Below are positions 32,544 to 57,809 of a stretch of 58,278 nucleotides of DNA, in pieces (positions within the stretch are counted from its first letter, which is position 1; each line of letters starts with the position of its first letter). The translations under genes were made by a program, and so were the position numbers. Source of the stretch: a bacterium (lineage in GTDB: Bacteria > Planctomycetota > JADGBV01); contig JAHFOS010000003.1 in assembly GCA_023261545.1 (NCBI GenBank), positions 1 to 58,278 of the forward strand. The letters are read 5' to 3'. A model generated the notes under the pieces. The model searched no databases and was not told the DNA's origin. It saw only the letters and a list, made by a program, of their open reading frames with translations.

Positions 32544-32625
32544 TGTCCACAGATATACACAGATTAAAGAAGATTGACCCGTATGGATTCTTATCTGTGT
32601 TGATCTGTGTCATCTGTGGATAAAT
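32544..32625. repeat. Palindromic repeat F, copy 1 (CCACAGAT type)
   Basis: The arms TCCACAGAT..ACACAGATTAA (from 32546) and TTATCTGTGT..ATCTGTGGATAAA (to 32624) form a long imperfect hairpin between gpsA (stop at 32649) and gmk (start at 32504). The same core is found inside the four ~250-base D elements and in a partial copy at 44710. Confidence 0.65.
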
Positions 32626-43824: not shown

Positions 43825-43859
43825 CAGGGTGCGGGGAACCCGTTCACCGGATTTTTTAT

Positions 43860-43970
43860 CTGGAAAGCAGGAAAGCAGGAAAAAGAGCCAAAAAACACGT
43901 GTCGGCTTCTTTTTTCGACCAGGAAACCCCAGAGAGCTTTTCTGATTTTTCCTGATTTCCCGCTTTCCAG
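43860..43970. repeat. Element E, intact copy (111 bp)
   Basis: The ends CTGGAAAGCAGGAAAGCAGG (43860) and CCTGATTTCCCGCTTTCCAG (to 43970) are inverted repeats. The interior contains GAGCCAAAAAACACGTGTCG. A second copy at 51642-52007, in reverse orientation, is interrupted by a D element. It lies between the SpoU-family gene start and lolD. Confidence 0.7.
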
Positions 43971-44009
43971 ATTCAAGTTGATTCTTTGCATTTTAGCCCG
44001 GCTGAACCA

Positions 44010-44709: not shown

Positions 44710-44800
44710 TTTTCCACAGAGGACACAGATTAACACAGATAATCATCAATCTGGGCAGACTTTTTAATCGGTGCCCATCGGTGTCATCTGTGGATAAATC
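44710..44800. repeat. Palindromic repeat F, copy 2 (core of element D)
   Basis: TTTTCCACAGAGGACACAGA (44710) pairs with ATCTGTGGATAAA (to 44798) through a loop. It shares CACAGATTAACACAGATAAT and TTTTTAATCGG with the four D elements but lacks their GGCTCATCC ends, so it is probably a truncated relative. It lies between the zinc-ribbon gene stop and the lolD start. Confidence 0.65.
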
Positions 44801-46158: not shown

Positions 46159-47223
46159 ATGCGCGCGTCCGCCGTCACGGGGGATTTCTATCTGGGCAAA
46201 CTCGCCGAGCTGAGCGCCGTGCTGGCACGGGTGCAACCCGGATCGGAACCTTTTTTCGCGGGGCCGCTGCAACTCGTCCAGGAAGCCATGGGTTTCACGG
46301 TGAGCGTCCTCTACCGCGTGGAGAATACGGTGGATCGCACGCTCATCCTCGAGGTGGCGGAGGTGCTCGATCCGGCGGGCCGGCGCCGCGCGCTCGTGCG
46401 CGGGGCGCGCCTCGCCATCAACCTCGATCATCCGGATCCCGCTTTCCGCAATGAGGCGCGGGCCTTCCTCAGCCGCGAGGTCGCCGCCGTCAACGTGCCG
46501 GGGGCGGGATGCGACATCGCGGGCTATATCACCGCCGGCGAGACCAGCGCGGAGGCCTACCTGCTGGCCGGGGATTTCGTGGGTCTGGACGCCGAAATTG
46601 CGGAAGCGGATCGCCGCGTTTTCGAAATCGCCACGGGACTGCTGAGCGCGCTGCTGATGAAAGCCCACTTCCAGCGGCGCGCCGACCACGACCGCCTCAC
46701 CGGCCTGCTAAGCTCCGCGCGCATCCGCGCCGAGCTCGAAGTCGCCCTGCGGCGCTGCGCGCGCCGGCCCGCGCGCGCTCTGGCGGTGGCGCTGGCCGAC
46801 GTTGACCATTTCAAGCGCATCAACGATGGTCACGGCCACCTCCAGGGCGACGCCGTGCTCGAGGAGCTGGGAAAGCTCATCGCCACGGCGTTGCGCGCGG
46901 GGCAGGATCACGCCGGCCGCTACGGCGGCGAGGAATTCCTGATCCTCCTGGAGGACACTTCCCCCGAAGCCGCGCGCGCCATCCTGGAGCGCCTGCGCCT
47001 GGCGGTGGAACGCCATCCCTTTCGCGGCGTGGGCCCCGACGGCCGGCCGCTCCTTGAAGGCACGTTGCCGGCCACGATTTCCATCGGCGCCTGGTGGCCC
47101 GAAGACGAAAGCCCCATCCCCGAGGCGGCCGCGGTGCTGGCGGCTGCCGACCGCGCGCTTTACTTGGCCAAACACGCGGGCCGCAACCGCGTGTGTTTTT
47201 TGGGCCCTGGGGCTGAAAAATAA
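46159..47223 (+). CDS. Diguanylate cyclase (GAF-like sensor plus GGDEF)
   Basis: A 354-residue protein. Residues ~10-165 look like a GAF-type sensor (LVQEAMGFTVSVLYRVEN...). The GGDEF domain runs from about 175 to 348: DRLTGLLSSARIRAELE, ADVDHFKRINDGHGHLQGDAVL with the metal-binding and GTP-contacting residues, and the active-site motif YGGEEF (256-260). The preceding RAGQD does not form a canonical R-x-x-D inhibitory site. It makes cyclic di-GMP from GTP. The stop codon TAA lies within an 8-base target duplication of a D element inserted directly after it. Confidence 0.9.
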   Translation: MRASAVTGDFYLGKLAELSAVLARVQPGSEPFFAGPLQLVQEAMGFTVSVLYRVENTVDRTLILEVAEVLDPAGRRRALVRGARLAINLDHPDPAFRNEARAFLSREVAAVNVPGAGCDIAGYITAGETSAEAYLLAGDFVGLDAEIAEADRRVFEIATGLLSALLMKAHFQRRADHDRLTGLLSSARIRAELEVALRRCARRPARALAVALADVDHFKRINDGHGHLQGDAVLEELGKLIATALRAGQDHAGRYGGEEFLILLEDTSPEAARAILERLRLAVERHPFRGVGPDGRPLLEGTLPATISIGAWWPEDESPIPEAAAVLAAADRALYLAKHAGRNRVCFLGPGAEK

Positions 47224-47467
47224 GGCTCATCCGAATAGTGCGTACTTTTCCAGAATTTTCACGCCGGTGCCTGGTCGAGCAAGATCGGAACCCAATCGAG
47301 TTGCCAGGGGGATTTTCCACAGATTGCACAGATTAACACAGATAATAATCAAGCAGGGCCGTCCTTTTTAATCCATGTAATCTGTGGATGCTTTCAAGTT
47401 TGGAGCGCAGCGGACCAAGAAAAACAGAGCGGACACTGCCCAGAAGTACGCATGAGTCGGATGAGCC
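47224..47467. mobile_element. Element D, copy 1: ISL3-like MITE (244 bp)
   Basis: Terminal inverted repeats begin GGCTCATCCGA and continue TGCGTACTT (21 of 24 bases match between ends). Perfect 8-base direct repeats AAAAATAA flank the element (47216-47223 and 47468-47475). The interior carries the CCACAGATT...ATCTGTGGATG palindrome. GGCTC-type termini with AT-rich 8-base duplications match the ISL3 family. It begins immediately after the TAA of the diguanylate cyclase gene, and the duplication contains that stop codon. No coding capacity. Confidence 0.8.
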
Positions 47468-47564
47468 AAAAATAAAAGCCGACACCGGGTTGAAAAAATG
47501 CGGCGCGGAGGATGATGCGGCATGGAGAAAGGCGGCTGGTGCTGATCATCGCAAGGGCGGCGTC

Positions 47565-47957
47565 GTGAGCGCGGAGCAGGCGCCCCGCGCCTTGTCCCGC
47601 ATCCTGGCCGTGGAAGATCAGAAGATCATGCACCTGATGTTCGACCGCGCCTTCGAGGGCAGCGAATTCGTGGTCGATCATGCCTACGACGGTCCCGAGG
47701 CCTTGGCCAAACTGCGCAACGGAAATTATTGCGCCCTGCTGCTGGATTTGCATCTGCCCGAGATGAACGGCATTGATCTGCTGAAAACCCTCCGCCAGTC
47801 GCACCCCGCGCTCGGCGTCATCATCATCACCGCCGACAGGGACGAAGCGCTGATGGAGGAAGCGCGCGGCCTCGGGGTGCGCGAGTTCATCATCAAGCCC
47901 GTCACCGAGCGTGACCGGCTCCTCGGCGCCGTGCGGCGCCTGGCTGGCGAAGTCTAG
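47565..47957 (+). CDS. Single-domain response regulator (CheY-like receiver)
   Basis: A 130-residue receiver domain from the GTG at 47565; longer upstream frames run into the D element. The acidic pocket is ILAVEDQK (E17, D18), the phospho-acceptor is D61 in LLLDLHLPEMNG, the conserved threonine is in IIITADRDE, and the lysine is K111 in FIIKPVT. There is no output domain. It lies between the diguanylate cyclase and the TonB receptor genes and could be the partner of the sensor kinase encoded 4 kb downstream. Confidence 0.85.
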   Translation: MSAEQAPRALSRILAVEDQKIMHLMFDRAFEGSEFVVDHAYDGPEALAKLRNGNYCALLLDLHLPEMNGIDLLKTLRQSHPALGVIIITADRDEALMEEARGLGVREFIIKPVTERDRLLGAVRRLAGEV

Positions 47958-48069
47958 GCGGGCCATGGCCGGGCGCATCGGGGTTCTCAGGAGTGGGAAT
48001 TTCCATAGTCACTGCTCAGGCCGATCCCCCTCTCCCAGGTTGGATAGTGGCACAAGCCATCTCTGATCT

Positions 48070-48218
48070 CCCTCTCCCTCCGGGAGAGGGCAGGGTGAGG
48101 GGAAGGCACTGTCTGCGAAATAATTTTGCAAGCGCGTTCCGTATTGTTATCCGTCTTAGTTGCCTCTCGATTTTGGTGATACAAAACCCCTCACCCCGGC
48201 CCTCTCCCGGAGGGAGAG
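48070..48218. repeat. Palindromic repeat G (CTCTCCCTCCGGGAGAGG type)
   Basis: The arms CCTCTCCCTCCGGGAGAGGG (48071) and CCCTCTCCCGGAGGGAGAG (to 48218) are inverted copies extending into GGTGAGGGG/CCCCTCACC, about 32 bases each. The whole forms a long hairpin before the TonB receptor gene, ending some 45 bases from its start. This repeat type is common in many bacterial genomes. Confidence 0.7.
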
Positions 48219-48264
48219 AGAGCTTGCCGAGACTTGATCCGTTAATTTCCATATAAGGGCGCAC

Positions 48265-50436
48265 GTGTTTCGCAGATCCGTCATGGTCCCCGCGCTGATC
48301 CTCGCCGGCATGGCGGTCGTGGGCCTGGACCGCGTTGCGGTGGCGCAGGCCGAAGAAGGAACCAGGGCTATCTCGACCGCCCGGTCCCGCCGTGCCTTGG
48401 CAGGCAGGCCCCCCGCGGCGCGGACTGAGGCGCAAGCGGACGAGCGTGCCATTTCAGAGCGCCAGCCCTTGAATGCCACGGCCGTCGCGACGGAAAAAGG
48501 CGAGGCCGCCGAAGAATTGCGGCTTTTTGATGAGATATCCCCGGTGAGCTTCGCCGCGCTCAAGGAGCCCATCCGGCGCGAACGGGCGCCCAACACCACC
48601 TACGTCTTCGCGGGGCGCGAACTGCGGGAACGGGGTATCCTGACGCTCAGGGATCTGCTGCGGCGCATTCCGGGATCCCAGGTGAACCCCCAGCGCCAGG
48701 GGCACGACGTGGCCTGGTTCCGCGGCGTACAGGCCCGCTACAACGACAAGATCCTGCTGGTGGTGGACGGCGTGCCCGTGCGCGACTACTTTTACGGCAA
48801 TTTCCTGCTGGACGAGATGCACCCGGTGGAGGAAATGGAGCGCGTTGAAATCGTGATGGGCCCCGGCTCCGTGCTCTACGGCGCCAATGCCTTCGCTGGC
48901 GTCATCAATATCACCACCTTCAAGCAGGGCGGCGAGGCCAGCGCCCGCTACGGCTCCCACGGCAGCGCCCAGGCCAGCGCGCGGCATGGCGCGCAGGGCC
49001 TGTCGGTCTTCGGCTCGCGGCTGCGGGTCACGGACGGCTTCGCGCCCACTTACGGCCGGGACGGCCTGGCGCGACGCGTTGCGCAGAACCAGGATCGCGA
49101 TCTCACCCGTTTCAACGTGGGGCTCACCCTGAACGACGCGCTCACCATGGCCATCGGCCGCACGGAGTACACTTACCCTTACGCCTATTCGAGTTTCGAC
49201 AGCGACCGTTTGAACCGGCGCGTGCCCACGACGACCTCGCTGCGCTACGCGACCCCAGAGGCCAAGGGCGAGGCGTGCATGTCGGACTTTGAAATCCTCG
49301 CGTATCACGTCCATTACGAGTTCTCCCAGAGCACCTTCAAGGTGAGCAAAAGCGGCGCCGTGGCGCCGAAAAGCGCGGAGGACGAATACCGTGACAACCG
49401 TTATTATGGCGTGGACGCGCTGTGGCGCCGCCACCATGGGGCTCACGGCCTGCTTTTCGGCCTGTCCCTCCAGGGGGACTCCCCCACCAGCCAGAACTAC
49501 AGCGAAGTTTACAAATACACCGCGGGCGGTGCGCGCGTCTTCGACAAACGCCTGGAAACCCTGGCCTATCCTCAGGACAGATACCTGAACTATGCGGCCT
49601 ATATCCAGGACTACTGGGCGCTGGGGCCCGACCTCGCCATCACCCTGGGGGGCAGGTACGACATTCAAGATCGTTTTGACGATGAGGTTTCCTACCGCGC
49701 CGGCCTGGTGCGCTCTTTCGGGGAAATCGCCGTCAAAGGCCTGGTGGGTACGGCTTTTCGCATCCCCAGTTACCGCGAGTTCCAAAAACTGGAAGACGGA
49801 ATCCCCGCCTACGACACCAGCCTCAAAACCGAGCACCTGCAGACCTTCGAGCTGGCGCTGGAGCGCAAGACGGCGCGCGCGGACCTGCTGGTCACGGGTT
49901 TCTACAATATCTACCGGGACTACATTGACGACCGCTTCGTGGCCACGGCCAGCGACGAGGTTTATTTCAATTTCCCGCGCCTGGACACGCGCGGCATCGA
50001 GGTCTCCAGCGAGCATTGGAGCCCCGGCCGGCGCGTGGGTTTGCTCCAGGGCCTCGCCTACACGCAGCGCCACGCCAAGGGCGGCGTCACCAACCAGCAG
50101 GGGCTTTCCCCGTGGTCGGGATTCGCCGGGCTGCGCTGGCTCCCCGAACCCCGGCTGGAGCTGGGCTCGGACCTGCTTTTCGCCTCGCGGCGCAAAGTGA
50201 ATGCGGACTATCAGAGCGCCGTTCCCGTGGCTCAGAGGGGTGCGGGTCTGCCCCGGGGCTACGCCGTGATCGACGCCCACGCCAGCCTGCAAATCCGGCC
50301 CCAGATGCGCTTGCGCCTCGCCGCGCGCAACCTCGCCAATGTCAAGTATGCGAGCCCCCATTTTGGGCCATCTTCCGGATACGATTACGCATGGCCCGGA
50401 GCCGAATTCGATTTGAGCCTGGCCGCGGAATGGTGA
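48265..50436 (+). CDS. TonB-dependent outer-membrane receptor
   Basis: A 723-residue outer-membrane protein starting at GTG 48265, with a signal peptide (MFRRSVMVPALILAGMAVVG). The plug domain (~110-230) shows GILTLRDLLRRIPGSQVNPQ, KILLVVDGVPVRD and VERVEIVMGPGSVLYGANAFAGVINI. The beta-barrel follows, ending in LSLAAEW with a terminal aromatic residue as expected for BAM assembly. The substrate is unknown; the short size and plug fit the cirA/fepA-like group. It is followed by an exported substrate-binding protein gene and a sensor kinase gene, suggesting uptake or sensing of one compound. Confidence 0.85.
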   Translation: MFRRSVMVPALILAGMAVVGLDRVAVAQAEEGTRAISTARSRRALAGRPPAARTEAQADERAISERQPLNATAVATEKGEAAEELRLFDEISPVSFAALKEPIRRERAPNTTYVFAGRELRERGILTLRDLLRRIPGSQVNPQRQGHDVAWFRGVQARYNDKILLVVDGVPVRDYFYGNFLLDEMHPVEEMERVEIVMGPGSVLYGANAFAGVINITTFKQGGEASARYGSHGSAQASARHGAQGLSVFGSRLRVTDGFAPTYGRDGLARRVAQNQDRDLTRFNVGLTLNDALTMAIGRTEYTYPYAYSSFDSDRLNRRVPTTTSLRYATPEAKGEACMSDFEILAYHVHYEFSQSTFKVSKSGAVAPKSAEDEYRDNRYYGVDALWRRHHGAHGLLFGLSLQGDSPTSQNYSEVYKYTAGGARVFDKRLETLAYPQDRYLNYAAYIQDYWALGPDLAITLGGRYDIQDRFDDEVSYRAGLVRSFGEIAVKGLVGTAFRIPSYREFQKLEDGIPAYDTSLKTEHLQTFELALERKTARADLLVTGFYNIYRDYIDDRFVATASDEVYFNFPRLDTRGIEVSSEHWSPGRRVGLLQGLAYTQRHAKGGVTNQQGLSPWSGFAGLRWLPEPRLELGSDLLFASRRKVNADYQSAVPVAQRGAGLPRGYAVIDAHASLQIRPQMRLRLAARNLANVKYASPHFGPSSGYDYAWPGAEFDLSLAAEW

Positions 50437-50461
50437 GGCGCGCTGCCAAGCTAAGCAATTA

Positions 50462-50660
50462 GTAAGCGTCCATCCCATGATTCGCGCTTGCGTATTGCGA
50501 TGTCAGCAGCCAGGCCCGTTCGTGCTGAGCTTGTCGAAGCACGAACGGGCCGTGTCGTCAGCGCCGTCCGCCCCCTTCGACTATGCTCAGGACAGGCTTC
50601 GACAAGCTCATCCCCCAAAACTGGGGATAAAGGGCGAACGGCGGGGGGGGCCCTGTCGTG
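50462..50660. repeat. Element B, copy 3 (degraded, inverted)
   Basis: Starting GTAAGCGTCCATCCCATGAT, this is the reverse-complement of the right end of element B copy 1. The interior palindrome CGTTCGTGCTGAGCTTGTCG is present twice, but the second terminal end is missing or diverged. It fills the gap between the TonB receptor gene and the substrate-binding protein gene, and produces spurious upstream extensions of the latter's frame. Confidence 0.65.
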
Positions 50661-50671
50661 GCACCAAAGTG

Positions 50672-51604
50672 GTGAACTCAGTTTGGTTCCGGCTTTGCCG
50701 GTCGGCGTTCTTGGTTTCCGCGCTGCTGGCGCGTTGCGCCAGCGCGGAAGACGTGCGCATTGTCACGCGGGACCACCCGCGCTACCGCGAGGTGCTCCAG
50801 GGGGTGCGCGATGGCATGCGCGAGGCGTCGTCCGGGCTTGCGCTCAGCACCGAATTCCTGAAGGAGAAACCAGAAGGCGCGCGGGAACACGCCGCCGCGC
50901 CCGCGCGCCTGATGCTGGCCATCGGCAGCGAGGCCTACAGCCTGGCCTTGCGGGAGCAAAGCCCCCTGCCGCTGGTTTTCTCCATGGTGCTCCAGCCCGC
51001 CGTCCCCGCCGCGGAACAGGGCGGGCGGCGCGTGGCGGGCGTCCTGGCGCTGCCGGAGCCGCACCTGCTCTGGAGCACGCTGCGCCTGGTGCAGCCCAAG
51101 GCCGAGAGGGTTGGCACGCTTTTTCTTTCCCCGGGGATTCGCGACTATGTGGCGGCCCTGCAACGCGAAGCCCAGAGCCAAGCCCTGGAGCTCGTCGCCT
51201 TGGAGGTCAAGGACAAGGCGGATTTCTCGGCGTCCCTGGAAAACTTGCTGACCCGGCAGCCGCAGGCCCTGTTGCTCCTGCCCGATTTCGGGCTCTGGAA
51301 CGAAGCGGCGGTTCGGCACACGCTGCTGCGCGCCTTTCGCGCCGGGATCCCCTGCATCGGCTTCTCCCAAGGCCAGGTCAAGGCCGGCGCCCTGTGGGGC
51401 CTCGGGCTATCGCCGCGCAATATCGGCCGCCAGAGCGCCCGTCTGGCCCTGGACCTGCTGGAGGGCAAGACCCCGCCGCCTTTGACCTATGCGGAGGGCA
51501 GCGAGCGCTATCTCAACCTCGTCACCAGCCGCGCTCTGGGACTCAGCCTGCCCAAGGCGGTGCTGGACAGCATGGACGCCGTGCTGGATGATGAGCGACC
51601 GTAA
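50672..51604 (+). CDS. Exported ABC-type substrate-binding protein (PF04392-like), orphan
   Basis: A 310-residue protein from the GTG at 50672 with a signal peptide (VNSVWFRLCRSAFLVSALLA...CASA). The fold is of the periplasmic-binding-protein type: ILAIGSEAYSLALREQ, LPLVFSMVLQPAVPA and RVAGVLALPEPHLLWSTLRLVQPKAERVG resemble the ABC_sub_bind family. The C-terminal half has IPCIGFSQGQVKAGALWGLGLSPRNIGRQSARLALDLL. No permease or ATPase gene is adjacent; a sensor kinase gene follows instead. It may therefore deliver a ligand signal rather than serve transport. Confidence 0.7.
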   Translation: MNSVWFRLCRSAFLVSALLARCASAEDVRIVTRDHPRYREVLQGVRDGMREASSGLALSTEFLKEKPEGAREHAAAPARLMLAIGSEAYSLALREQSPLPLVFSMVLQPAVPAAEQGGRRVAGVLALPEPHLLWSTLRLVQPKAERVGTLFLSPGIRDYVAALQREAQSQALELVALEVKDKADFSASLENLLTRQPQALLLLPDFGLWNEAAVRHTLLRAFRAGIPCIGFSQGQVKAGALWGLGLSPRNIGRQSARLALDLLEGKTPPPLTYAEGSERYLNLVTSRALGLSLPKAVLDSMDAVLDDERP

Positions 51605-51641
51605 GGGTTCACCCGATCAAAATGCGAAAAATTAATTTGAA

Positions 51642-52007
51642 TCCGGAAGGCAGGAAAGCAGGAAAACGCAAGAAAGTCCTCTGGGACTTCCTCGAAAAAA
51701 GAAACCGACACGTGTTTTTGGGGCTTTTCCGAAAAATGCGTACCTTTCAAGAGGTTTCACACGGGACCACGACCTGGCAAGGCGGGGACCCAATCGCAAT
51801 ACAGGGAGATTTTTCCACAGATGACACAGATTAACTCAGAAAACAATCAATCAGGGCTGGCCTCTTTATCAGTGCCCATCGGTGTAATCTGTGGATAAAT
51901 CCGAGTTGAGAACACGGAGCAATAGGAAAAAACTGGGGGAGAGGACTTTGCCAGAGGTACGCATTCCTCGGATGAACCGTTTTTTGGCTCTTTTTCCTGC
52001 TTTCCAG
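51642..52007. repeat. Element E, second copy, interrupted by element D copy 2
   Basis: The outer ends CCGGAAGGCAGGAAAGCAGG (51642) and CCTGCTTTCCAG (to 52007) match element E in reverse orientation. Element D copy 2 sits between 51722 and 51978 in the GTTTTTTGG stretch of element E, with that stretch found on both sides (left GTTTTTGG, right GTTTTTTGG). The intact copy at 43860-43970 shows the pre-insertion sequence. Confidence 0.7.
51722..51978. mobile_element. Element D, copy 2 (diverged ends, 257 bp)
   Basis: Its left end, GGCTTTTCCGAAAAATGCG, and right end, GGTTCATCCGAGGAATGCG when reversed, resemble other D copies but have several substitutions, and the flanking duplication has a one-base indel. 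The interior CCACAGATGACACAGATTAA palindrome is intact. It lies in the gap between the substrate-binding protein and sensor kinase genes, within element E. Confidence 0.7.
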
Positions 52008-52042
52008 ATAAAAAATCCGGTGCACCGTTACGAGCGACAGCC

Positions 52043-53512
52043 GTGAAAGCGCGCTTTATTCCCGGGTTCACGCTCTCCCTCACCGCCAAGCTCGCCCTCA
52101 CGCTCTCCTTCACTATTTTCGCCACGGCCGCGCTGCTGGGCTTGGAGATGATGCGCGGCCGGCGGGCGGTGCTGGATCGCGCGCTCAAGGAACAGGGGCA
52201 TACCTTGCTGCGCGGGTTCGCGAGTTCCTGCGAGTTCGGCCTCACCTTCGGCAACCGCGAACTGCTGCACAGCCTCGCGGGCGACCTGCTGAAGGAGCCG
52301 GACGTGGTGCGGGTCGCGGTGCGCGACGCCAAGGGGAAAATCCTCGTCGCCCTGGAGGAAGCGGATCTCGGCACGGCGTATGTTTTCGAGCTTTCCGCGG
52401 AGGTGCGCGCCGCCGGCGCCGAGGGCGAGGAATGGGCCCTGCCGAAAGGCGCAACGGGCGCTGAAAGTGAATTGGTGGGCTCCGTGACCCTGGGCATCTC
52501 CACCGCTTCGCTGCACGCGCGCATCAGCGAATTGCGCCAGACCATCCTCCAGATAACCACGATCATCGCCGTCGCGGGCCTCATGGTTTCGCTGCTGCTG
52601 GCCAGGCTTTTGACCGTACCCTTGAGACGCCTGGTGCAGGGGACGGAAAACATCGCCGCCGGCCGTTTCGACTTCAAGGTGGAGGAAACCGGCGCGGATG
52701 ATCTGGGGATGCTGGCGCGATCCTTCAACCACATGACGGGGGCGCTGAAGCAGAGCACGGAGACCCGGGACCTGCGGGAACAGCAGTTGCGGGAGGCCTA
52801 CCAGCAGCTCAAACAGGCCCAGGACCAGATCGTCCAGGCCGACAAGCTCGCCGTGCTGGGCGAACTCGGCGCCGGCATCGCCCACGAGCTCAACCAGCCG
52901 CTCACGGGCATCCTGCAGTTCGCGGCGCTGGCGCGGAGCTCGCTGGGAGAGGAGCACCCCGTGGCCAGGGACCTGCGCCTGATAGAGGAACAGGCGCAGC
53001 GCATGGCGGTGCTCGTCCGCAAAATTACCGCCTTTTCCCGGACGCAAAAAATTGAACTGCGCCGCGTGCGGGTGCGCGCCGAGCTGGAGGATGCCCTGGA
53101 GCTCATCGGTCATCAGCTCCGCGCGCAGCGCATCAAGGTGCATCCGGACGTGGCCGCGGACCTGGAGGTGCTGGCCGCCCCGCACTTCCTGCAGCAGGTT
53201 TTCTTGAACCTGCTCAGCAACGCCCGCGACGCCATCGTGCCCCGTGAGCAGGGGGGGGAGATCCGCGTCTTTGAGAGATCGGCTGCCGCTGGGCGGTGCG
53301 CCGTCGTCGTCACGGACAACGGCCAGGACATCGCGGACGAGACCGCGCGCCGCCTTTTCGAGCCCTTCTTCACCACCAAGGAAGCCGGCAAAGGCACGGG
53401 CCTCGGCCTCTCCGTCTCCTACGGCATCATGCGCGATCTGGGGGGCAGCCTCTCCTTCCAACGCGGCGCCGCCGGAGAAAAAGAGTTCGTCATCGAGCTG
53501 CGGCGGGCGTGA
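52043..53512 (+). CDS. Membrane sensor histidine kinase with HAMP domain
   Basis: A 489-residue kinase from the GTG at 52043. Two transmembrane helices (~12-35 and ~168-190) flank a periplasmic sensor region of about 130 residues. A HAMP domain follows (PLRRLVQGTENIAAGRFDFKV), then a coiled coil, then HisKA with the phospho-acceptor H281 in AGIAHELNQPLTGI. The ATPase domain has the N-box LLSNARDA, a G1 box DNGQDI (usual form DNGxGI), FEPFFTTK and the G2 box GTGLGLSVSYGI. The Asp in place of Gly at 429 is unusual. The regulator partner is probably the CheY-like protein encoded upstream. Confidence 0.9.
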   Translation: MKARFIPGFTLSLTAKLALTLSFTIFATAALLGLEMMRGRRAVLDRALKEQGHTLLRGFASSCEFGLTFGNRELLHSLAGDLLKEPDVVRVAVRDAKGKILVALEEADLGTAYVFELSAEVRAAGAEGEEWALPKGATGAESELVGSVTLGISTASLHARISELRQTILQITTIIAVAGLMVSLLLARLLTVPLRRLVQGTENIAAGRFDFKVEETGADDLGMLARSFNHMTGALKQSTETRDLREQQLREAYQQLKQAQDQIVQADKLAVLGELGAGIAHELNQPLTGILQFAALARSSLGEEHPVARDLRLIEEQAQRMAVLVRKITAFSRTQKIELRRVRVRAELEDALELIGHQLRAQRIKVHPDVAADLEVLAAPHFLQQVFLNLLSNARDAIVPREQGGEIRVFERSAAAGRCAVVVTDNGQDIADETARRLFEPFFTTKEAGKGTGLGLSVSYGIMRDLGGSLSFQRGAAGEKEFVIELRRA

Positions 53513-53532
53513 GGCCCGGCCAAAAGAAATCC

Positions 53533-53786
53533 GGCTCATCCGAAGAATGCGTACCTCCTTGGCAGTGTCCCCCTGTTTGTACTCGGCTCTCCGCGTCCTC
53601 AACTCGGGAGCATCCACAGATTACACAGATTTGCACTGATTAAAAAGGACGGCCCCGGTTGATTATTTTCTGCGTTAATCTGTGTAATCTGTGGAAAATC
53701 CCCCTGGCAGTTCGATTTGGTTCCGGTCCTGCTCGACCAAGCACCTGTGTGAAAATTCTGGAAAGTGCGCACAATTCGGATGAGCC
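53533..53786. mobile_element. Element D, copy 3 (254 bp)
   Basis: Its ends GGCTCATCCGAAGAATGCG and (reversed) GGCTCATCCGAATTGTGCG match the D family. The flanking octamers AGAAATCC and AAAAATCA agree at six of eight positions, consistent with an older duplication. The interior palindrome ATCCACAGATTACACAGATT...AATCTGTGGAAAATCC is present. It lies 20 bases after the sensor kinase stop. Confidence 0.75.
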
Positions 53787-53791
53787 AAAAA

Positions 53792-54244
53792 TCAGCCCGG
53801 ATTTCGCCGCGTATAGATGCCCACGGCCAGGGTGCCGTGCGCCGTCTTGGCGGCGAAAAAATTCCCGCTATCCGGGGGCGGATACTCCTGCGCGAAAAGG
53901 GAGGGTAGGCCCATCCGAGTTTCCGGCCACAGGTAGCGCTTGAGGCAACCGCAGACCTGGTTGGCGAATTCGAGGCCCATGCTGGTCCGGAACCTCATCA
54001 ACTCATCCACAGCCGGGGGCCCCCCGAGCATGCCCGCGACCATGGCGTCGAGCAGGGATGGCTCCAGGACGAAGATGAAGAACAGGCTCGGTTCACCGGA
54101 AAGCGGGAAGGCGACGCGCACCCCCGTTGTTTCAGGCAGGCGATCCAGACCTATCAGCGGCGGGCAGACGACCTGAGAGCTCCGCAACACGACATCCAAG
54201 GCGCTGCGCAGGTTGGAATCGAAATCTGCTTGATCGGGCGACAT
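53792..54244 (-). CDS. CheX-like chemotaxis phosphatase domain protein
   Basis: A 150-residue cytosolic protein from the ATG at 54244; the longer upstream frame has no conserved sequence. It resembles CheX: a strand-rich start (GVRVAFPLSGEPSLFFIFVL), then LEPSLLDAMVAGMLGG, and the helix MGLEFANQVCGCLKRYLWPE, which corresponds to the E-x2-N catalytic motif (E-F-A-N). The end APEYPPPD-like region and GTLAVGIY fit the last strands. CheX dephosphorylates CheY-P. The response regulator gene 6 kb upstream could be its substrate. Confidence 0.6.
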   Translation of the reverse strand: MSPDQADFDSNLRSALDVVLRSSQVVCPPLIGLDRLPETTGVRVAFPLSGEPSLFFIFVLEPSLLDAMVAGMLGGPPAVDELMRFRTSMGLEFANQVCGCLKRYLWPETRMGLPSLFAQEYPPPDSGNFFAAKTAHGTLAVGIYTRRNPG

Positions 54245-54320
54245 GCGGTTTTTCACAATTGTAGCAATATCATGAAAATGACAATCGCAATTGTGGCGTC
54301 GTGTGGCTTTGGCGCCAAGC

Positions 54321-56084
54321 TCAGATCCCGGTAAAAAGGTCGGAAAGGCGGGCGGTTTCGCGGTCGGCGGGATCGAAAAGCGCGTCCAGACCCGCGCCCG
54401 CGCGGCGCAGCGCCGAGCGCACGTAATAGCTCCCAGCCGCGCGGGCGCGCAGGGCTTCGGGCGAGTCCGCCTTGAAGTCCGTGAGGTCGCGCTCAAGCCG
54501 GCCTAGCACCGCCGCGGAGGTGGTGAGGGCGATGGCGGCTTCCGCGATGCGGTTCAGGTCCAATTGCCGGTCCACCACCTGCTCGCGCCAGCGCGCGAGC
54601 ACGCGCACGCCAGCGCGGTGGAAGCGCTGCAATTCCCGCCCGTAGATTTCCGCCAGGGGCGCGAGTTCTCCGTGGGCGCAGGGGAAGGCTTCACGGCGCA
54701 GCCAGTCGGCAGCCAGCGACCCGGCGCCCGCGATGAAACGCCCCCAAGCCGCGGGCCGGCGCGCGTTTTCCAGCAGCGCCTCCAGATCGCGGCCCAGGCC
54801 GCGCAGCCCCGTGAGCGCGATGAACACGCGCAGCACTTCGTTCGCGCCCTCGCCGATGGTGTTGAGCCGGGCGTCGCGCATCATGCGCTCGAAGGGCTCG
54901 TCGGTAAAAAAAGAGCGCCCGCCCAGCACCTGCATGGCCTCGTAGCTCAGCGTCCACAGCGCTTCGCTGGCAAAAACCTTCAGGATGGCGGTTTCCAGCA
55001 TCACGTCTTCCTCGCCGCGATCCACCAGGCCCGCGGTGAGATAGGTCATGGCCTCCATGGCGTAGCTCAAGGAGGCCATGCGGGCTATTTTTTCCTGGAC
55101 CATGCCGAAAGCGCCGATGGGGCGGTGGAACTGCTGGCGGCTCGCGGCGTGCGCCGCGGCGCGCTGCAGCAGGACTTTTCCGGCGCCGGTGCAGGAAGCG
55201 CCGAAGGTGAGGCGGCCGAAATCCAGCACCGTGAGCGCTATCTTGAGCCCCAGGCCCGGCGCGCCCAGCAGGTTTTCCTCGGGGACCTCCAGGTTTTCGA
55301 AGGCGAGCTTGGCGGTGGCCGTGCCGCGGATGCCGCACTTCTCCAGGGCCGCGGCCTCCACCTTGAAACCGGGGAGATCGGGTGTGACCAGGAAGGCGCA
55401 GATTTTGTCCTCTTTGCCGCGCGGGCCTTGAACCTCCATGCGAGCCATGAGCGTGAGCACGCCGGCGATGGCGCCGTTGGTGATCCACTGTTTGCGCCCA
55501 TTGATGAGGTAAACGCGGCGCTCCGGCAGGTGGATGGCGCGGGTCTCGATGCCGGCGGCGTCCGATCCGGCATTGGGCTCGGTGAGGGCGAAGGCCGCGA
55601 GCTTGCGGCCGCGCGCGAGATCAGGCAGGAAACGGCGCTGCTGCGCTTCGTTGCCGAAAAGCAGGATGGCCTTGAGCCCGATGCTCTGGTGCGCGTTCAC
55701 GAACACCGCGGTGGCTCCGCAGCGCGCGGCCACGGCCTCCATGGCGCGGGCGTAGGCGTATTGCGAAAGCCCCAATCCCCCGTGGGCCTGGGGTAGGGTG
55801 AGCCCCAGCAGCCCGATCTCGCCGAGTGCGGCGATGAGTGGATCGGGAATGCGCGCCTCGCGATCAATGGCCACGGCGTCGAGGTGGGCGTCGAGCACGG
55901 GGCGCAAGCGGGCGAGGAACTCCTCGGCCGCGCGCTGCTCCTGCGCCGACGGCGCGGGGAAAGGCCGCACCTTGGCGGCGAGCAGGCGGCCACGGAAAAG
56001 CGACTTCGCGAAACCCGCGGCGAGAGGCTTGGCGAAGAGCAGTTCCTCCGCCATTTTGAGCTGTAAGCGCTGCGCCTCGTCCAT
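54321..56084 (-). CDS. Acyl-CoA dehydrogenase (VLCAD/ACAD9-like)
   Basis: A 587-residue flavoenzyme from the ATG at 56084 for the first step of beta-oxidation. The FAD-binding blocks are AFALTEPNAGSDA and GRKQWITNGA. LAFENLEVPEENLLG and RLTFGASCTGAGK are conserved in the middle domain. The C-terminal domain has RSFFTDEPFERMMRDARL and NTIGEGANEVLRVFIALTG, whose glutamate is the catalytic base position of the long-chain enzymes. The extra ~180 residues at the C-terminus match the VLCAD/ACAD9 class. It is divergent from the hydroxyacyl-CoA dehydrogenase gene across a 31-base gap. Confidence 0.85.
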   Translation of the reverse strand: MDEAQRLQLKMAEELLFAKPLAAGFAKSLFRGRLLAAKVRPFPAPSAQEQRAAEEFLARLRPVLDAHLDAVAIDREARIPDPLIAALGEIGLLGLTLPQAHGGLGLSQYAYARAMEAVAARCGATAVFVNAHQSIGLKAILLFGNEAQQRRFLPDLARGRKLAAFALTEPNAGSDAAGIETRAIHLPERRVYLINGRKQWITNGAIAGVLTLMARMEVQGPRGKEDKICAFLVTPDLPGFKVEAAALEKCGIRGTATAKLAFENLEVPEENLLGAPGLGLKIALTVLDFGRLTFGASCTGAGKVLLQRAAAHAASRQQFHRPIGAFGMVQEKIARMASLSYAMEAMTYLTAGLVDRGEEDVMLETAILKVFASEALWTLSYEAMQVLGGRSFFTDEPFERMMRDARLNTIGEGANEVLRVFIALTGLRGLGRDLEALLENARRPAAWGRFIAGAGSLAADWLRREAFPCAHGELAPLAEIYGRELQRFHRAGVRVLARWREQVVDRQLDLNRIAEAAIALTTSAAVLGRLERDLTDFKADSPEALRARAAGSYYVRSALRRAGAGLDALFDPADRETARLSDLFTGI

Positions 56085-56115
56085 AGTGTCTTTTGAGCTG
56101 CCTGGGGGGCTTATT

Positions 56116-57492
56116 ATGCCATTGTACTCTATGACAGGCGAAGACAAAAACGCGCTGGATTTTGATGGCCGATTAGCGAACGCGGCCGTGATCGGCGCGG
56201 GCGGCAAGATGGGACGCGGCATCGCGCTCGTCTTAGCCTTGGAGCTCGCGAAAATGGCCGCGACACGGCCGGGGCTGCGTCCGCGCCTGTGCCTGGTGGA
56301 GCAGGACGAGATGGCCTTGCAGGCCGCCGTGGCCTACATCGAAACGCAGGCCGCGCGCTGGGCTGAGAAGAACATCAATGCGCTGCGCGCCCTTTACGCG
56401 CCGCGCCGCGAGCTCGTGGAGAACGCCGAGATGGTCGAGGCCTTCACGCGCGCGACGGCGCGCAGCCTGGCGCCGGGCCGGGCCGTCGAGAGCACCGCCG
56501 GCGTGGAACTGGTTTTTGAGGCCGTTCATGAAGACGAGGAACTCAAGGCCCGGTTGCTGGCGCGCGCGGGCGCGCTGGCCGCCCCCGAGGCGTGGTTCCT
56601 CACCAATACGTCCTCCATTCCCATCGCCGCCCTGGAGCGCGCGAGCGGGCTCTCGGGCCGGCTCATGGGCTTTCATTTCTACAACCCGCCAGCGGTGCAG
56701 AAACTCGTCGAGCTCATCCCTGCGGCGGGAACGCGCGCGCCGCTGCGGGATTTTGCGCTCGCGCTCGCGGGACGCCTCGGCAAGACGGCGGTGCCGGTGA
56801 ACGACGTGGCGGGCTTCATCGGCAACGGCCAGTTCATCCGCGAGGCCGTCTTCGCCATCGCGCTGGCGGGCGAGCTTTCAAAAATCCACGGTGAGGCCGA
56901 GGCTTACGGCGTTTTGCAAATCTTCACCCGCGACTGGCTGCTGCGCCCCATGGGCGTCTTGCAGGTGGTGGACTACATTGGCCTCGACGTTTTCTCCATG
57001 ATCGCCGCGGTGATGGAAAAACACGGCGCCGGGGAGCGCCTGACCTTAGGGCCGGTGCCGCAACTGCTCGCGCGCGGCATCGTGGGCGGCCTGCATCCCG
57101 ATGGCCGCCAGCGCGACGGGTTCTACCGCTATGGGCCCGCTGGCGTCGAGGCTGTCGTCGCGCCCAGTCGCGGGGAGTACCAGCCGCTCGCCGCCCTCGC
57201 GGTGACGCTGGAAGCTTGGTGTGGCCCCAAGCCCGCGGGCTGGGCGCCGTGGAGCCGCCTGCAGCGCGAGCCGGGCGGCCGCGCGGCGGTGGCGGCCTAT
57301 CTGGAGGCCCTGGCCGCGCATCCAGGCGCTGGCGGCGAACTCGCGCGGCGTTACCTCGACCGCTGCCGCGCCATCGCGGAAGGCCTGCTCGCCAAGGGAG
57401 CGGCCCAAACGCCCGAGGATGTGGACCAGGTGATGACGCTGGGCTTCAACCTGCTCTACGGCCCCTGCGCCTGGAAAGCGGCGGCGCAATAA
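56116..57492 (+). CDS. 3-hydroxyacyl-CoA dehydrogenase
   Basis: A 458-residue enzyme from the ATG at 56116 (an ATG five codons later is also possible). The NAD-binding motif is AAVIGAGGKMGRGIAL, ESTAGVELVFEAVHEDEELK and TNTSSIPIAAL follow, and HFYNPPAVQKLVELIPA carries the catalytic histidine. NDVAGFIGNGQFIREA starts the C-terminal dimerisation domain. It lacks the N-terminal enoyl-CoA hydratase part of FadB, so it is a stand-alone enzyme for the third step of beta-oxidation. A thiolase gene follows downstream. Confidence 0.85.
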   Translation: MPLYSMTGEDKNALDFDGRLANAAVIGAGGKMGRGIALVLALELAKMAATRPGLRPRLCLVEQDEMALQAAVAYIETQAARWAEKNINALRALYAPRRELVENAEMVEAFTRATARSLAPGRAVESTAGVELVFEAVHEDEELKARLLARAGALAAPEAWFLTNTSSIPIAALERASGLSGRLMGFHFYNPPAVQKLVELIPAAGTRAPLRDFALALAGRLGKTAVPVNDVAGFIGNGQFIREAVFAIALAGELSKIHGEAEAYGVLQIFTRDWLLRPMGVLQVVDYIGLDVFSMIAAVMEKHGAGERLTLGPVPQLLARGIVGGLHPDGRQRDGFYRYGPAGVEAVVAPSRGEYQPLAALAVTLEAWCGPKPAGWAPWSRLQREPGGRAAVAAYLEALAAHPGAGGELARRYLDRCRAIAEGLLAKGAAQTPEDVDQVMTLGFNLLYGPCAWKAAAQ

Positions 57493-57531
57493 TTCTGAGG
57501 GTTCAAAATGCGAAGAATTAAGGTGAATTGT

Positions 57532-57787
57532 GGCTCATCCGAAGAATGCGTACCTCTGGCAGGGTTCCCCCTCATTTGTTCTCGGCTCTCTGCGCCCTCA
57601 ACTCGGGAGCATCCACAGATTACACAGATTTGCACCGATTAAAAAGGATGGCCCGGATTGATTATTATCAGTGTTAATCTGTGCAATCTGTGGAAAATCC
57701 CCCCGGCAGATCGCCTTGGTTTCAGACTTACTCGACCGAGTGCCCGTGTTAAAAATCCCAGAAAAGTACGCATTATTCGGATGAGCC
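57532..57787. mobile_element. Element D, copy 4 (256 bp)
   Basis: Ends GGCTCATCCGAAGAATGCG and (reversed) GGCTCATCCGAATAATGCG are nearly identical. The flanking octamers TGAATTGT (57524-57531) and TAAATTGT (57788-57795) agree at seven of eight positions. The interior CCACAGATTACACAGATTT...AATCTGTGGAAAATCC palindrome is shared. It lies between the hydroxyacyl-CoA dehydrogenase stop and the thiolase start, so the thiolase promoter or leader lies within or near it. Confidence 0.75.
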
Positions 57788-57809
57788 TAAATTGTTACGC
57801 GGGGGCGAT

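Follow-up and report, generated by a model that had tools for sequence, protein, structure and literature searches.

A high-copy family of miniature elements, very likely of ISL3 origin, carries a slow-changing palindromic core in a planctomycete genome

The window analysed here, a stretch of 58,278 nucleotides (positions 1 to 58,278 of contig JAHFOS010000003.1, planctomycete assembly GCA_023261545.1), contains four related non-coding sequences that share their ends and an internal CCACAGAT palindrome. What kind of element are they, what moved them, and why does the palindrome vary so little from copy to copy? A first-pass annotation had described them as four miniature inverted-repeat transposable elements (MITEs) of about 250 bp, and the copies, their ends and their flanking octamers all proved to be as it described. 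The identity of the family as MITEs is near certain. The element is of an ordinary kind, unusually well supported, with one unusual feature, which is its slow-changing core. Taken as a whole, the explanation that we consider highly probable is that these are high-copy ISL3-type MITEs carrying a retained core of CACnGA boxes, a putative protein-binding site.

Copies and ends of the MITE family

The pattern of the MITE ends, GGCTCATCCGAANNATGCGTAC, searched with up to 3 mismatches, matched the window at eight places, which are exactly the eight ends of the four MITEs, and 100 shuffles gave no match. The host genome (G000), a metagenome-assembled genome (MAG) of 4.56 Mb in 288 contigs that is 91% complete with 63% GC, contains 234 such ends (113 + 121), or about 117 copies, compared to none for a reversed control pattern. 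Pairing of ends, target duplications and rates of change in the core all rest on a sample of 1.16 Mb of non-redundant host sequence assembled from fetched stretches; these were partly picked for containing copies, and the density of copies in the sample is not that of the genome. The sample yielded 80 paired copies of 244-272 bp, with no transposase gene. Terminal inverted repeats found at one end only were considered as parts of larger elements and rejected, being truncated MITEs or copies at contig ends.

The copies in the window span 244-257 bp. Copy 4, the reference, lies at 57532-57787 on the plus strand (256 bp) and matches the end pattern without mismatch on both sides. Copy 3 has the same orientation (53533-53786, 254 bp, 0 and 2 mismatches at its ends), and the other two are inverted relative to copy 4: copy 1 at 47224-47467 (244 bp), with one mismatch in each of its ends at 47224-47245 and 47446-47467, and copy 2 at 51722-51978 (257 bp, 2 mismatches per end), which sits within another dispersed repeat. 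A fifth copy was found on the same contig at 71103-71360, shortly past the end of the window.

Target duplications and sites of insertion

All four copies are flanked by matching octamers. Copy 1 has AAAAATAA at both 47216-47223 and 47468-47475 (8/8), copy 2 has GTTTTTGG at 51714-51721 and GTTTTTTG at 51979-51986 (7/8), copy 3 has AGAAATCC at 53525-53532 and AAAAATCA at 53787-53794 (6/8), and copy 4 has TGAATTGT at 57524-57531 and TAAATTGT at 57788-57795 (7/8). The annotation had named comparison of the octamers with chance as a test of its claim. Across the sample, they agree at 8/8 in 45 of the 80 paired copies and at 7/8 or better in 58, where random reassignment of the right flanks would give about 1.5. 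Mean identity of the flanks was 0.83 at length 8 and at most 0.51 at lengths 4-7 and 9-12. The target octamers have 18% GC, compared to 63% for the genome, and their four central bases are 97% A/T.

The earlier proposal that decay of the duplications ranks the copies by age did not hold up, since duplication identity barely tracks copy divergence (Spearman rho −0.10, p=0.36, for divergence from the consensus; rho −0.30, p=0.007, for end mismatches). The 7/8 copy at 57532 has a sibling that is 98.4% identical, whereas the 8/8 copy at 47224 has no match closer than 92.6%.

The copies insert between genes, as judged from genes predicted in the sample with a simple codon model of our own making. 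None of 75 classifiable copies lies within a predicted gene, in a sample that is 82% coding; 45 are in tandem, 18 in convergent and 12 in divergent gaps, of which 346, 97 and 101 were available. The observation that a plus-strand stop codon precedes each of the four window copies holds to the letter (at 0, 117, 20 and 39 bp) and fails as a property of the family: the gene ends flanking the 75 copies comprise 81 3' and 69 5' ends, and a genome-wide preference for gene 3' ends was rejected. The TAA in the left octamer of copy 1 is the stop codon of the open reading frame (ORF) at 46159-47223; because the duplicated octamer holds this stop codon, the upstream reading frame is intact.

Probable origin from an ISL3-type transposon

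ISL3-family elements have GGCTC-type ends and make 8-bp duplications, traits that the annotation had called established when it proposed an ISL3 transposon as the source. The closest relative that we found is an intact ISL3 element of the same phylum (L193) of 1309 bp, which encodes a 404-aa protein matching PF01610 (E=5e-74) and NF033550 (E=4.5e-98). Its ends, GGCTCATCCGACTAACGCGTACTT and GGCTCATCCGGTAAACGCGTACTT, agree with the MITE end at 21/24 and 19/24 positions, and it is flanked by a perfect 8/8 duplication, tgaattgt. At a second locus (L182), the C-terminus of an ISL3 transposase runs straight into a MITE-type end that departs from the pattern at 2 of its 20 specified bases. The host's family is represented by one other genome (G001), which has an ISL3 element with ends that match the MITE end at 16-17/24 positions. 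PF01610 is present in 73 of 294 genomes of the phylum, and perfect 8-bp duplications were seen at six of the ISL3 elements fetched from it. With the L193-type end match and the duplications, the ISL3 reading is supported by sequence.

Filled and empty sites could be compared within the genome. When one octamer is removed, the joined flanks of several copies align to uninterrupted repeats at 75-90% over the junction. Those of copy 2 match window positions 43842-43991 on the minus strand at 80% identity in an alignment of 150 columns that extends across the junction; this is a host repeat without the MITE, which has one ...GTTTTTTG/GCTC... where the filled site has two octamers. Joined flanks of copies on contigs C111, C97 and C24 match loci on C62, C32 and C37 at 84-90%. 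The filled-empty difference that the annotation had suggested looking for is thus present in paralogous form and, together with the L193 ends and the 8-bp duplications, it supports derivation from, or movement by, an ISL3 transposon. On these sequence comparisons, an ISL3 transposase very likely moved the MITEs.

Like the ISL3-family insertion sequences, of which L193 is the closest, the MITEs have GGCTCATCCG... ends and 8-bp duplications at AT-rich sites; unlike L193, they are 250 bp rather than 1.3 kb long, lack a gene and have a palindromic core. The IS1595 family also makes 8-bp duplications, and an origin from it was rejected on the absence of a gene (no PF12762 match in the host genome) and not on the ends. 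Among described elements, the 235-bp MITE Chunjie of Geobacter uraniireducens is similar in being small and non-coding, with terminal inverted repeats and sequence-variable copies (PMC10969869). The passages found in that review do not mention a slow-changing core of tandem boxes, and the term ISL3 is absent from it (PMC10969869).

A slow-changing core of tandem boxes

The internal palindrome noticed in the annotation is present in all four copies of the window, as CACnGAT cores at 47316-47388, 51814-51895, 53613-53695 and 57612-57694, and in 80/80 paired copies of the sample. Its rate of change is about a quarter of that of the arms, the loop or the ends. Between 36 disjoint pairs of similar copies, differences amount to 7.6% in the arms, 6.4% in the middle and 6.2% in the ends, compared to 2.3% in the two 18-bp stems of the core. 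Mutation bias was rejected as the cause: 30 stem changes were observed in the 36 pairs, and the expectation stays at 94 when matched for base and CpG or 99 when matched for trinucleotides. For the 18 pairs above 93% identity, 6 stem changes were observed compared to 23.6 expected. Stems were located at up to 5 mismatches in 19, and since 79 of the 80 copies were retained by this search, selection of copies is not the cause of the slow core.

Within the stems, the positions of TCCAC.GAT..CAC.GAT changed at 7 of 1008 sites (0.7%), compared to 23 of 288 (8.0%) for the four bases between them. The conserved positions are tandem CACnGA boxes 9 bp apart, with neutrally changing bases between them. 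A third box further inside the MITE core is not conserved. A reading of TTATCCACA as a DnaA box was rejected, as the bases preceding CCACA are not conserved between subfamilies. The simplest reading is that the core is a putative DNA-binding array kept in place, and a function of the core where it has inserted is plausible.

Cores also exist outside MITEs, in other genomes and in the window, where a free CACnGAT palindrome lies at 32546-32620 without MITE arms or ends. Another core, at 44713-44794, has part of the MITE arms and no recognisable ends, as either a decayed copy or a free core.

As a separate observation, a second repeat, AGAACAAAC...GAATCTTGTTTTTC...GGTTCCGG, interrupts three MITE cores (G000:C219:48299-48724, G000:C241:9912-10347 and G000:C158:13750-14000) at almost identical positions; its own palindrome reads CACGAAG in two of them and CACCAAG in the other. 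Insertion of this repeat into the core may thus be site-specific.

Alternative explanations for the core and the elements

The slow core could instead be maintained by transposition only, as an internal site of the transposase or of a host factor, with only intact-core copies multiplying. Its presence in every paired copy is what this explanation predicts, but the ends, which transposition needs too, changed at a near-neutral rate over the same time; most of what distinguishes close copies must therefore postdate insertion, and we consider selection on transposition alone unlikely. We give somewhat less credence to recombination without selection for a binding site, in which conversion between copies, initiated for instance by cleavage of the hairpin, would act at the palindrome that they share. 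Long palindromes are recombinogenic, and this one is common to more than 100 copies and the free cores. Conversion should, however, homogenise the bases between the boxes as well, and these change about as often as the arms, more than ten times as often as the boxes.

The core might also be kept as an RNA or DNA hairpin, such as a transcription terminator or an mRNA 3'-end stabiliser. Copy 4 does fold into a single long imperfect hairpin, far better than shuffles (z=-7.6), and many copies are near gene 3' ends; yet such ends are not in excess, and the left and right stems show no covariation (identity within copies 0.798, shuffled 0.802), which speaks against a maintained stem. The positions that change produce mismatches, and no Rfam family reached its gathering score (the best in a MITE was mir-254, 24.6 bits compared to 70), leaving the hairpin improbable, slightly more so than conversion. 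It is far harder to credit that the elements are repetitive extragenic palindromic (REP) sequences moved by a Y1 transposase like the REP-associated tyrosine transposases (RAYTs) rather than ISL3 MITEs. Two PF01797 proteins are present in the host genome, in open frames of 303 and 310 aa, and REP sequences and bacterial interspersed mosaic elements associated with RAYTs are likewise intergenic palindromes in high copy number. The MITEs differ from these in their 8-bp duplications, which RAYT systems are not known to make, and in having ends that match ISL3; the Y1 genes have no flanking arrays, as no tandem C[AG]CnRA[GT] boxes occur in the ~3.3 and 2.6 kb fetched around them. Of the Y1 genes, which are at G000:C145:1553-1879 and C121:22317-22475, the first has GGGTCGGACCAAGCTAA repeats on its flanks; these may be REP-type elements of its own.

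Several points weigh against the explanation of ISL3-moved MITEs with a core kept in place. The full ISL3 element that the annotation had suggested searching for was not found in the same genome, as none of the 288 contigs of the 91%-complete assembly has a PF01610 match, and the mobilising transposase is therefore a presumed one. It would now be either lost from the genome or missing from the assembly, which at this completeness and fragmentation are indistinguishable. The difference between filled and empty sites comes from paralogous sites only. The box positions were named after their conservation had been seen, which makes the contrast between boxes and intervening bases circular in part, an objection that does not apply to the 4-fold slowdown of the stems as a whole. 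Lastly, pairs of copies that are less than ~93% identical may have branches of the copy tree in common.

If the ISL3-MITE explanation is correct, an ISL3-family DDE transposase would bind and cleave at the ~24-bp ends. Acting in trans, it would place the non-coding 250-bp MITE at NN[AT]4NN octamers and duplicate 8 bp of target in doing so; nearly all such insertions would fall between genes. The cargo inside the element would be tandem CACnGA boxes with 9-bp spacing, arranged as an inverted pair, and these would be kept after insertion as a protein-binding site acting where it sits. We know of no role for the ends after insertion. The family is a well-documented example of ISL3 MITEs, with ~117 copies, with empty sites and with a closely related autonomous element. 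The slow core matters more. Remnants of transposons that encode nothing should drift, and here one motif appears to have been retained since insertion, so that binding of a host or mobile-element protein to 9-bp-phased CACnGA boxes becomes a hypothesis open to testing.

Distribution and a possible wider class of box arrays

The MITE end at one mismatch was found in no other of the 149 members of the phylum searched. A more degenerate end pattern occurs once or twice each in 4 other members, one of the matches being the ISL3 element L182. An exact scan of the ends in 84,980 species genomes, which may leave out records of the window's own genome, matched only in one KSB1 MAG. We infer that KSB1 is a phylum other than the host's, because there was no other match among the host's relatives. 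Plasmids and viral contigs gave chance-level matches to the MITE ends or none. The KSB1 MITEs have MITE-type ends with different interiors, asymmetric ends and near-perfect 8-bp duplications: copies of 492 bp and 200 bp are flanked by gcattaaa/acattaaa and gtaaatat/ataaatat (7/8 each), and one of 284 bp matches at 6/8. This MAG (G149, JAFGJB01) has 7 GGCTCATCC ends, all on the plus strand of their contigs, with opposite ends of a different type, GGTTNTTCCG...GAGTACTT, so that its elements have two distinct ends.

Similar boxes recur outside the family. With MITEs masked, the intergenic DNA of the host has 128 pairs of C[AG]CnRA[GT] heptamers at a spacing of 9 bp, compared to 3.2 expected, with 57 at 8 bp, 40 at 10 bp and at most 5 at 11-13 bp, and two control motifs gave 0-2 pairs at 8-10 bp. 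ISL3 loci of other genomes, which were not picked for repeats, have 2-3 such pairs. The KSB1 loci, picked by their ends, have 24 pairs at lag 9 and 37 at lag 10, compared to 1.3 expected, and the arrays in their MITEs are of CACCGAG and CGCAAAG. In G043, which is a distant member of the host's phylum, the division into conserved and variable positions recurs in a third tandem box that the search pattern did not cover: CAC and GAT are nearly fixed, and n and the two bases between are variable.

Based on the box constraint, the third box in G043, the lag-9 excess, the KSB1 arrays and the CACGAAG/CACCAAG inserts, we tentatively propose, as a possibility we hold at less than even confidence, that the core belongs to a class of C[AG]CnRA[GT] arrays that spans phyla, its members being intergenic, inverted and phased at 8-10 bp. 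These would bind in place a candidate, probably modular, protein family, with ISL3-type MITEs as one vehicle. The core may help to explain why such arrays recur between genes in unrelated bacteria; a literature search with the repeat sequences, made in one library, found no relevant paper and no description of them.

Host repeats around the copies

The site in which copy 2 landed is a dispersed palindromic repeat, GAATC-GGAAAGCAGGAAAA...CCTGCTTTCCAGATAAAAAATCCGGT, seen in the window at 43842-43991 and 51617-52030 and recurring across the genome. Two more repeat families, of CGCGGAT and CGCGGAG boxes, were repeatedly entered by MITEs, with at least 4 of the 80 copies in family one (G000 contigs C62, C37, C24, C29, C111 and C53) and at least 5 in family two (C32, C16, C203, C158, C135, C284 and C61). 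Between copies 1 and 2, at 48060-48222, the window has an inverted pair of CTCCCTCTCCCTCCGGGAGAGGG-type sequence, its arms 93% complementary and 99 bp apart, adjoining a long ORF (48265-50436) that by eye resembles a TonB-dependent receptor.

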